From: Halarcobacter sp.
GTDB lineage: Bacteria > Campylobacterota > Campylobacteria > Campylobacterales > Arcobacteraceae
Assembly (NCBI RefSeq): GCF_963676935.1
Contig: NZ_OY781470.1
Location: 1,584,680-1,648,679, forward strand
Direction: 5' to 3'
DNA length: 64,000 bases
Shown here piece after piece: positions 8,453-41,801 of the stretch. Position 1 is the first letter of the stretch. Each line of letters begins with the position of its first letter. The notes below the pieces were generated by a model, which made no database searches, was not told the DNA's origin, and saw only the letters and a program-made list of their open reading frames with translations. Made by a program: the position numbers and the translations under genes.

Positions 8453-8476
8453 AAGATAGGTTAAGACCTATCTTCT
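8451..8476. terminator. Bidirectional hairpin between convergent transporter and helicase genes
   Basis: A perfect 11-base-pair stem (AGAAGATAGGT / ACCTATCTTCT) encloses a four-base loop. It contains the stop codons of both convergent genes (TAG at 8450-8452 and, on the minus strand, 8468-8470). Flanking T/A runs are short but present, so it probably ends transcription from both sides. Confidence 0.75.
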
Positions 8477-9742
8477 AAAACTTCTATTAGAATCTCTTTT
8501 TGTAGTTTTCTTAGATTTTACAGGTTCTTTTTTTACAGGGGCTTTTCTACCCTTTTTCTCACTTAATTTCTTTTTAGTTTGAACTTTTTGTCTTGGTTGT
8601 CTATCTTTTAAAGGAAACTCTTCATGAACTTCTCTTTTAACATTTAATCTTAAATTTCTTTCTATTTTTGTAAAATGATTATAATCCTCAGTTGTAAGGA
8701 TTGAGATCACTTCACCTTTATTTCCAGCTCTTCCTGTTCTCCCTACTCTATGTGTAAAATCATCTGTATATTCAGGTAAGTTGTAATTTATAACTAAAGG
8801 AAGTTTTTCTATATCTAAACCTCTTCCTGCAATATCAGTAGCAATTAAAACTTGTACTTTTTTATTTTTAAAGTCTTTTATTGATTGAACTCTTTGTTTA
8901 TATTCAATATCCCCATGTATAGCTGCTGCTTTTACTCCATGTGAACTAAAATGTTCAATTGCAGCATCAGCTGCATCTTTTTTATTTACAAAAAGTAATA
9001 TTTGCTCATAAGTAGAATCTTTAATAAGTTTTGTAACTAATTCTTTCTTTTTCTTTTTATCAATTTTAAATGCACGGTGTTTTATTAGATTAACTTTATC
9101 TCTTCTATCATGTACTTGAACAGTAACAGGTTCTTTTAAAAACTCTTTTGCAAGTTTATTAATATTTTGTGAAATTGTTGCAGAACACATAACAATTTGT
9201 CTTCTTGGTGAACACATTGCAAATATCTCTTCAATCTCTTCTAAAAATCCCATTTCAAGCATAGTATCTGCTTCATCTAAAACAATAAAATTAACAGAAC
9301 TTAAATCAAGAATCTCTTCTCTAACTAAATCTAAAAGTCTACCTGCTGTTGCAACTACAATATCCACACCAGTTGATATAACTTGAGTTTGCTTTGTTCT
9401 ACTTGCACCACCCATAACTTTTGTATGTTTCACTTTTAAAAACTTTCCATAATCAGATAAAGATTTTGAAACTTGTTCTACTAACTCTCTTGTTGGGACT
9501 AATATTAGTCCCCTTAAAACTCTATTATTAAAATTTAAATTAGAGTTTATTTTATTTAACATTGGAAGTACATATGAAGCTGTTTTTCCTGTACCTGATT
9601 TAGAAGCAGCAATTACATCAATCCCTTTATTAACAATAGGAATTACTTTTTTTTGAACCTTAGTTGGGTTATCATAATCTTGTAACTCTATTGCTTTTAA
9701 AATAGATGGGTTTAAATTTAATTCAGCAAATTTATTATTTAT
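8468..9742 (-). CDS. DEAD-box RNA helicase (RhlE-like) with apparent AUA start codon
   Basis: The full frame runs from 9745 to 8468 and encodes a complete DEAD-box helicase of about 424 residues. Visible motifs are the Q motif (F5 and PTKVQ at 26-30), Walker A ASKSGTGKT (46-54), PTRELVEQ, VLDEAD, CSAT, and HRVGRTGRAG, followed by a lysine/arginine-rich tail of about 50 residues. No ATG, GTG or TTG occurs before Met61, which lies after Walker A. An in-frame TAA sits at 9746-9748. AAAGGA at 9749-9754 is six bases from an ATA at 9740-9742, so ATA is the best start. The ribosome site overlaps the stop of the upstream gene. It likely acts in RNA decay or ribosome assembly. Confidence 0.85.
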   Translation of the reverse strand: MNNKFAELNLNPSILKAIELQDYDNPTKVQKKVIPIVNKGIDVIAASKSGTGKTASYVLPMLNKINSNLNFNNRVLRGLILVPTRELVEQVSKSLSDYGKFLKVKHTKVMGGASRTKQTQVISTGVDIVVATAGRLLDLVREEILDLSSVNFIVLDEADTMLEMGFLEEIEEIFAMCSPRRQIVMCSATISQNINKLAKEFLKEPVTVQVHDRRDKVNLIKHRAFKIDKKKKKELVTKLIKDSTYEQILLFVNKKDAADAAIEHFSSHGVKAAAIHGDIEYKQRVQSIKDFKNKKVQVLIATDIAGRGLDIEKLPLVINYNLPEYTDDFTHRVGRTGRAGNKGEVISILTTEDYNHFTKIERNLRLNVKREVHEEFPLKDRQPRQKVQTKKKLSEKKGRKAPVKKEPVKSKKTTKRDSNRSFRR

Positions 9743-9752
9743 AACTTATCCT

Positions 9753-10079
9753 TTAGTATATACTAGACATTACTTCATCATCTAAGTATGAATCAATTTT
9801 TTTTGTTAAGTCTTCAAATGATATTGTACCTTTTTTATTGAAAAGTACAATCTCTTCTCCAAAATCATTTTTTATAAAATGTTCTTCATTTTTAACTTTT
9901 TTATAAAAAGCTTTCATCTCTTCAGGTGAATCCATATCATTATATAAAAACCAATTAGCAGTAGTATCTTCAACTCTAATCAAACCATAAGTTTTTGCTT
10001 CATCAACATAATCTTGAATAGTTCCATTATCAAATTTTGCACCAACTACTATATCATTTTCATTTAAAATCATTTCCAT
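9753..10079 (-). CDS. Hypothetical acidic protein, 108 aa
   Basis: I do not recognise this family. The 108-residue protein is soluble, acidic and has no signal peptide or membrane segment; it looks like a compact alpha/beta domain (VVGAKFDNGTIQDYVDEA early, EEIVLFNKKGTISFEDL late). AAGG stands 9 bases before the ATG. Its TAA at 9753-9755 overlaps the AAAGGA ribosome site of the DEAD-box helicase gene, so translation of the two is probably coupled, and this gene could set helicase expression. Confidence 0.6.
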   Translation of the reverse strand: MEMILNENDIVVGAKFDNGTIQDYVDEAKTYGLIRVEDTTANWFLYNDMDSPEEMKAFYKKVKNEEHFIKNDFGEEIVLFNKKGTISFEDLTKKIDSYLDDEVMSSIY

Positions 10080-41095: not shown

Positions 41096-41108
41096 GGGAT
41101 TAAAAATC

Positions 41109-41801
41109 ATTTACTATCTAACACTTGAAGATTTAAATAACAAACATATATTAGAACATGAAATATATGCAAATATGAATGAAAATTACTATTGGACTGA
41201 AGATTGTTCAACTGAATTTTATATAAAAGCTGCACAATGTGGATTTATTACAACTTCATTTCATACAAAGAAAAAACAATTTGTTCTTTTACCTGAAATT
41301 CAATTTGAATATGCAGTTTTAGAGTTTTCTGAAATCAAAATCAATAAAAAAGTACAAAAACTATTAAGTGAAAATATGTATGAATTCTCCATAAATAACC
41401 GATTTGATGAAGTTATTAATAACATAAATACTTATCATGATGATTCTTGGTTAAAACCAGAGTATATCACTATACTTAAAAATATTAAAAATAATGAATT
41501 AGATAAAGACTTTAAGCTTATGACAGTAGAAGTGTGTGAAAAAGAAACAAAAAGACTCATTTCAGGTGAAATTGGTTATAAAATTGGAAAAACATACACA
41601 TCTTTGACAGGATTCACTACAAGAGAAAAAAAATATAATAATTGGGGTAAGTTACAACTTGTACTACTTAACAAGTATTTATACAAAAATGGCTATAAGC
41701 TCTGGAATCTAGGGCATCCCCAACTTCAATATAAGATTGATTTAGGTGCAAAAATATATAATCGTCATGATTTTTTAAATATGTGGAATCAGCATATTTA
41801 A
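41109..41801 (+). CDS. Leucyl/phenylalanyl-tRNA-protein transferase-like protein, probable non-AUG start
   Basis: The C-terminal two thirds resemble Aat, which attaches Leu or Phe from tRNA to protein N-termini: FSINNRFDEVINN, SWLKPEYITIL, GEIGYKIGKTYTSLTGFTT, then LQYKIDLGAKIYNRHDFL. The first ATG at 41175 has no ribosome site and cuts off a coding-like segment (YYLTLEDLNNKHILEHEIY). AAGGGA at 41094-41099 is 6 bases before an ATC (41106) and 9 before an ATT (41109). The frame is closed upstream by TGA at 41088. I give the ATT as start with low certainty. Divergence from true Aat is high, so another aminoacyl-tRNA-dependent or GNAT-type role is possible. Confidence 0.6.
   Translation: MYYLTLEDLNNKHILEHEIYANMNENYYWTEDCSTEFYIKAAQCGFITTSFHTKKKQFVLLPEIQFEYAVLEFSEIKINKKVQKLLSENMYEFSINNRFDEVINNINTYHDDSWLKPEYITILKNIKNNELDKDFKLMTVEVCEKETKRLISGEIGYKIGKTYTSLTGFTTREKKYNNWGKLQLVLLNKYLYKNGYKLWNLGHPQLQYKIDLGAKIYNRHDFLNMWNQHI

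Follow-up and report, generated by a model that had tools for sequence, protein, structure and literature searches.

The window, that is, the whole stretch of 64,000 nucleotides analysed here, comes from the 3.1-Mb single-contig genome of a Halarcobacter species and carries on its minus strand a gene for a DEAD-box RNA helicase of 424 amino acids (positions 8468 to 9742). The product was assigned from Pfam and NCBIfam profiles: it matches the DEAD (PF00270, 3.7e-44) and Helicase_C (PF00271, 2.6e-30) domains, and its translation contains GTGKT, DEAD, SAT and HRVGRTGR, which we take to be the motifs, the P-loop (Walker A) included, of a DEAD-box (superfamily 2) enzyme. The nearest models are those of RhlE, with RhlE1 as the best NCBIfam match, and the protein scores below the cut-offs of the RhlE1 and RhlE equivalogs (NF053711, 375.6 versus 750 bits; NF007882, 359.5 versus 743). 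Along the minus strand, the gene's frame reads AAA GGA TAA GTT ATA AAT AAT AAA TTT GCT and onward. It opens after an in-frame TAA (9748-9746), which a single codon, GTT (9745-9743), separates from the putative ATA start codon (9742-9740), assigned from its position, its Shine-Dalgarno (SD) spacing and the codons at the homologous place in related genes. The SD sequence AAAGGA (9754-9749) lies six bases ahead of ATA. With ATA counted as codon 1, the first canonical start codon of the frame (ATG, GTG or TTG) is the ATG of codon 61 (9562-9560), which has no SD ahead and lies behind the P-loop, since the P-loop region (SGTGKT) occupies codons 46-54 (9607-9581). Stops flank ATA on both sides in each of the two other reading frames. 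Directly upstream on the same strand is a 108-amino-acid ORF (9753 to 10079), for which Pfam and NCBIfam gave no match at E 0.001. An initial sequence-only reading had described the lack of ATG, GTG or TTG until past the P-loop, the six-base spacing of AAAGGA and an upstream stop overlapping the ribosome site; all of these hold, the overlapping stop being the TAA (9755-9753) of the 108-amino-acid ORF. Its extent for the coding sequence, 8468-9754, has to be corrected, as the coding sequence proper spans 8468-9742. The start region showed no RNA structure beyond that of shuffled sequences in the four stretches folded (z-scores +0.98, +1.01, +0.43 and -1.17).

Orthologues were drawn from three overlapping sets, namely 150 relatives, 248 genomes of the order and 397 of the phylum, and AUA, AUU and AUC were scored together as AUH. 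In 73 of the 76 members of the orthologous clade, AAGG is followed after 6-8 bases by an AUH codon. The clade, made up of 72 Arcobacteraceae genomes and 4 from two other families, is split off by a single branch (support 99) in a tree of 146 helicases; in an earlier FastTree the long row L149 fell outside the clade, beside L246. Clade members came from 72 of the family's 91 listed genomes, and none was found in the other 19. A further search of the genome collection for related loci gave six, three of which (L078-L080) were close relatives already included. We excluded L146-L159 except L149 as coming from genomes already counted, L078-L080 (on contigs matching G002:C2, G005:C37 and G013:C75 in length), L077 (the same as L160) and L206 (the same as L137) as duplicates, and L347 as a fragment. 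L246 had been filed under a paralogous group, P2, and was moved into the helicase clade by the trees; without this move and two genomes added afterwards, the count would be 73 of 73. The four members from the two other families of the order (L144 and L149 in f14, L145 and L369 in f6) all have an AUH start; in the trees they are nested within Arcobacteraceae sequences, which looks like transfer or mis-binning.

In the 72-locus set, AUH was found at every start (ATC 37, ATA 24, ATT 11), always 6-8 bases after AAGG and at 7 bases in 63 loci; the SD is AAGGA or TAAGGA in 70 loci and AAGG in 2. One extra orthologue, L369, has ATC after AAGGA and 6 bases. Counting back from the Q motif's conserved Phe, the AUH codon stands at three codons, except for four in the species of the window and in a 95%-identical relative and six in L024. 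Comparison of the start codon among relatives, which the first reading had proposed as a check, gave ATT in that 95%-identical relative alongside the near-general AUH of the clade. From the in-frame stop up to the second codon past the start, 68 of the 72 loci are free of canonical codons, and the four exceptions have one each upstream (L031 ATG, L032 TTG, L037 GTG, L059 TTG); in 10 loci the in-frame stop leaves just one codon ahead of AUH. An AUH codon at an SD-spaced place without ATG, GTG or TTG is thus kept across species, as in a conserved non-canonical start.

The related paralogues, from the same genomes and from the order, served as a control, and in all 70 loci read a canonical codon occupies the start place: ATG in all 20 of the L002-like group P2 (L246 excluded), 19 ATG, 1 GTG and 1 TTG in the 21 L004-like genes (P4), and 28 ATG and 1 GTG in 29 other helicases of the order (C40). 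In the paralogue L166, an ATC immediately precedes its GTG. This contrast with AUH in 73 of 76 clade members supports, at the level of sequence comparison, a genuine AUA start of the kind first suggested for the window. The helicase shares with RhlE-type DEAD-box helicases its domain make-up and its best family scores, and differs from them in falling below the equivalog cut-offs and in forming a separate clade, while the related helicases start canonically. The five DEAD-box genes of the window's genome start with ATA (the window's helicase), ATG (L002), TTG (L003), ATG (L004) and ATT (L005). SD matches of 5 or 6 bases occur in 70 of 72 loci of the window's clade, 4/20 in P2, 10/21 in P4 and 16/29 in C40; because matches of this length are also found in P4 and C40, P2 is the only group against which the SD is clearly stronger. 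The AUH codons at the start differ in usage from the Ile codons in gene bodies, ATC making up 51% of the former versus 11% of the latter, in a count that ignores relatedness.

Three clade members start with ATG: L246 (G022), L307 (G039) and L308 (G060), all of them fast-evolving helicase genes from one small-genome genus of Arcobacteraceae. In L308, AAGGA and 6 bases are followed by ATG precisely at the place of AUH in the other members; L246 has its ATG without a visible SD. These exceptions lend support to the AUH place as the apparent start place. Furthermore, the third base of the start codon underwent at least 15 changes in a 75-row tree, of which one was to G. The probability of so few changes to G is about 0.02, 0.08 or 0.17 if 1/3, 1/4 or 1/5 of the changes go to G, respectively. 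This makes for a modest argument, with a null that is generous because selection on an ordinary start codon favours G. The kept feature of the start codon, as read from the alignments, is 'not AUG'.

The weak start is not a lone oddity, since a second gene of the window and a second helicase show AUH as well. The former, on the plus strand (41106 to 41801), is a Leu/Phe-tRNA-protein-transferase-like coding sequence (PF03588, 1.7e-13) with an ATC start; 13 of its 15 full-length congeneric orthologues carry AUH and the other 2 have ATG in that codon's place, and 14 other full-length loci outside the genus have mixed starts. The latter is a DbpA-like paralogue (PF03880; L005/L114, G000:C1:968602-969966) that starts at ATT in the window's genome. 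Its 67 orthologues show AUH only in 29, a canonical start in 36 (12 with and 24 without an SD), both in 1 and an unclear start in 1, and the tree of these 67 sequences requires no fewer than 9 switches from AUH to a canonical start or back. When 124 conserved genes were surveyed in the 164 kb that comprise the window and its surroundings, the helicase and the transferase-like gene were the only two flagged, by a rule that misses AUH genes having a chance SD-preceded canonical codon. As the window was chosen for one flagged gene, the AUH rate without the helicase is 1 in 123.

These data bear on whether the AUH start is real yet merely tolerated by drift, with no regulatory role, the strong SD sufficing and AUG never being reselected. 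The recurrence of AUH in the DbpA-like helicase, with its repeated switches, and in the transferase-like gene looks as if the lineage tolerates such starts, and the three clade members with ATG have retained the helicase gene. Drift is nevertheless rather improbable in our judgement: over at least 15 codon changes G was reached once, 73 of 76 members keep AUH and the related paralogues nearly all have ATG. Moreover, with only two of the 124 surveyed genes flagged, AUH does not look generally tolerated. We conclude that the helicase start is a real, conserved and probably selected weak start; genes limited by AUH are already known, and it is the depth of conservation that is unusual.

A truncated protein made from a canonical codon further in, the ATG of codon 61, is the start that an ORF list restricted to ATG, GTG and TTG gives. 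As the first reading had warned, annotation of ATG 9562 would truncate the enzyme, with loss of the Q motif and the P-loop. Codon differences were counted in ten hand-picked orthologue pairs, aligned without gaps. From the conserved Phe to +55 there were 76 synonymous and 44 nonsynonymous differences and from +56 to +200 there were 241 and 81, while the in-frame codons 16 to 7 ahead of Phe gave 1 and 33. Hence there is constraint at the protein level from the start region onward, including the first 56 codons from Phe, and none just upstream. The first canonical codon downstream of AUH lies past the P-loop in 45 of the 72 loci and before it in 27. Thirteen of these 27 codons are an ATG at codon 7 and none has an SD ahead; a start at such a codon is conceivable in those 27 loci and counts against the AUH reading. 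Given the constrained codons upstream of ATG 9562 and the lack of an SD ahead of it, we rejected an internal start at codon 61, which we hold to be very improbable.

A frameshifting or read-through route to the helicase, beginning in the upstream ORF, could be entertained within the genus, where a homologue of the 108-amino-acid ORF ends 9-20 bases ahead of the helicase start in 15 of 15 loci. It is likewise in L030, with 11 bases between. The homologue lies further up in L031, L032, L035 and L045, and none turned up in the remaining 52 of the 72 loci within the 500-700 bases upstream that were examined (many about 500, and less at contig ends). Frameshift or read-through was rejected as hardly credible, since all three frames are closed by stops around ATA and AUH is present in most other genera, where the upstream homologue was not found directly upstream. 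The first reading had also proposed that translational coupling supplies ribosomes to the weak start. An adjoining upstream gene in the genus and in L030 speaks for this part of the proposal, which does not extend to the family at large, as the gene was not found directly upstream elsewhere; nor does it stand directly before the start in all its carriers, as the partner in a coupled pair would. Of the 72 loci, 45 have an exact TATAAT at 15-62 bases ahead of the start, against about 17 expected from shuffled stretches, and these matches are probably promoters by their consensus. With the upstream homologue not found in most loci over the bases examined and TATAAT present upstream of the start in 45, AUH appears independent of coupling, and coupling as its general cause was rejected, the homologue being mostly not found outside the genus. 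Finally, a sequencing or assembly error at 9740-9742, for which nothing speaks except the oddity itself, is refuted by the relatives, of which the 95%-identical one has ATT and 71 other clade members have AUH; it has a negligible probability, short of an error common to 73 genomes.

The AUA codon, its conservation, the coding conservation from the start region on and the lack of alternatives are directly established. We consider it likely that translation genuinely starts at AUA 9742 and that this weak start throttles helicase synthesis, probably via discrimination by the initiation factor IF3. According to this model, the ordinary initiator tRNA, with anticodon CAU, would decode AUA as fMet despite a mismatch at the third base, and the good SD would position the 30S subunit at AUA. 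IF3 would then reject most of the mismatched codon-anticodon pairs, so that output would be a small fraction of the AUG level, and helicase output would rise as discrimination drops, either at low IF3 or with immature or poorly discriminating 30S subunits. Selection would retain any AUH and not AUG, GUG or UUG. Since AUH is kept and canonical codons are avoided, a low, IF3-sensitive helicase level would be the likely trait. We infer low helicase output and selection for it from the conserved codon and, by analogy, dependence on IF3 and feedback to the state of the ribosome. AUH codons could also be translated efficiently in these bacteria, which would mean no throttle. In agreement with decoding by the ordinary initiator, both tRNA sequences of the genome that we take to be of the initiator type have the anticodon CAU, and no dedicated initiator tRNA with another anticodon was found among the 31 distinct tRNA sequences in the stretches holding the genome's 48 listed tRNA places.

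The AUU start of E. coli pcnB limits the synthesis of poly(A) polymerase, a product of RNA metabolism. The helicase resembles it as an RNA-metabolism gene with an AUH start and differs in its product, a helicase and not a poly(A) polymerase. A poly(A)-polymerase-like frame (pcnB-like, L348) was noticed at G000:C1:430269 of the window's genome. The start of infC is AUU in E. coli, AUA in S. aureus and AUC in Streptomyces (PMC13009471, PMC5472188). infC shares with the helicase an AUH start, a good SD and a translation-related product. It differs in that its product is IF3 itself and that infC uses UUG in this order: among 41 genomes searched, the first canonical codon of infC (L084-L113) was UUG in 30 of 30 loci read, from many families. 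Classic AUH feedback on IF3 thus seems absent in the order, and no direct autoregulation by the product is expected here, as the product is a helicase and not IF3. With these differences, the comparison with infC and pcnB as genes whose expression is limited by the start codon, already drawn in the sequence-only reading, appears sound as an analogy.

Several precedents suggest how such a start could behave. In a reconstituted system, more IF3 lowered the share of full-length product from AUU/CAU (PMC10158994), and a Listeria reporter gave the order ATG > ATA > ATT (PMC13068326). In S. aureus and related species, ccpN (AUA) and cvfC1 (AUU) combine a weak start with a strong SD, conserved between species, and conserved AUA and AUU starts of S. 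aureus give about 10% of AUG in poor-medium reporters, with ccpN at up to 30% in rich medium (PMC13009471). The helicase is alike in its weak start codon, strong SD and cross-species conservation; those genes have other functions, whereas the third base of the helicase start varies between A, U and C across the whole family. In Streptomyces, the SigR level is set by a GUC start repressed by IF3 and the sigR start is conserved (32 of 34 GTC, 2 GTT; PMC5472188). The likeness there is the conserved non-canonical start; the codon class (GUC) and the product differ, and IF3 repression of the helicase is suggested by analogy. On the strength of these precedents for weak starts disfavoured by IF3, the helicase start is taken as a probable IF3-enforced throttle. 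It is also possible, if doubtful, that Arcobacteraceae have a small set of AUH genes, comprising at least this helicase, the DbpA-like helicase and the Leu/Phe-transferase-like gene, whose output would be set by start-codon discrimination on the 30S subunit; helicase synthesis would go up under a shortage of IF3 or with immature 30S subunits and would help to restore normal ribosome assembly or mRNA unwinding, in a feedback sensing the fidelity of initiation.

Among the matches listed in a search of titles and abstract openings of the open-access literature, there was no report of an AUH start, be it in Arcobacter or in a DEAD-box gene of any bacterium. Weak non-canonical starts that are conserved, and presumably functional, are known from few bacterial genes, and the helicase adds a family-wide case, with the reversal to ATG as a natural control and with two other genes at the least sharing the AUH habit. 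Gene-finding programs restricted to ATG, GTG and TTG are expected to truncate or miss AUH genes. Furthermore, the helicase lets start-codon stringency as a signal outside infC be tested directly. For the Arcobacteraceae, the near-universal weak start suggests that the cell deliberately holds helicase production low and, by analogy with the known systems, perhaps ties it to the state of its ribosomes.
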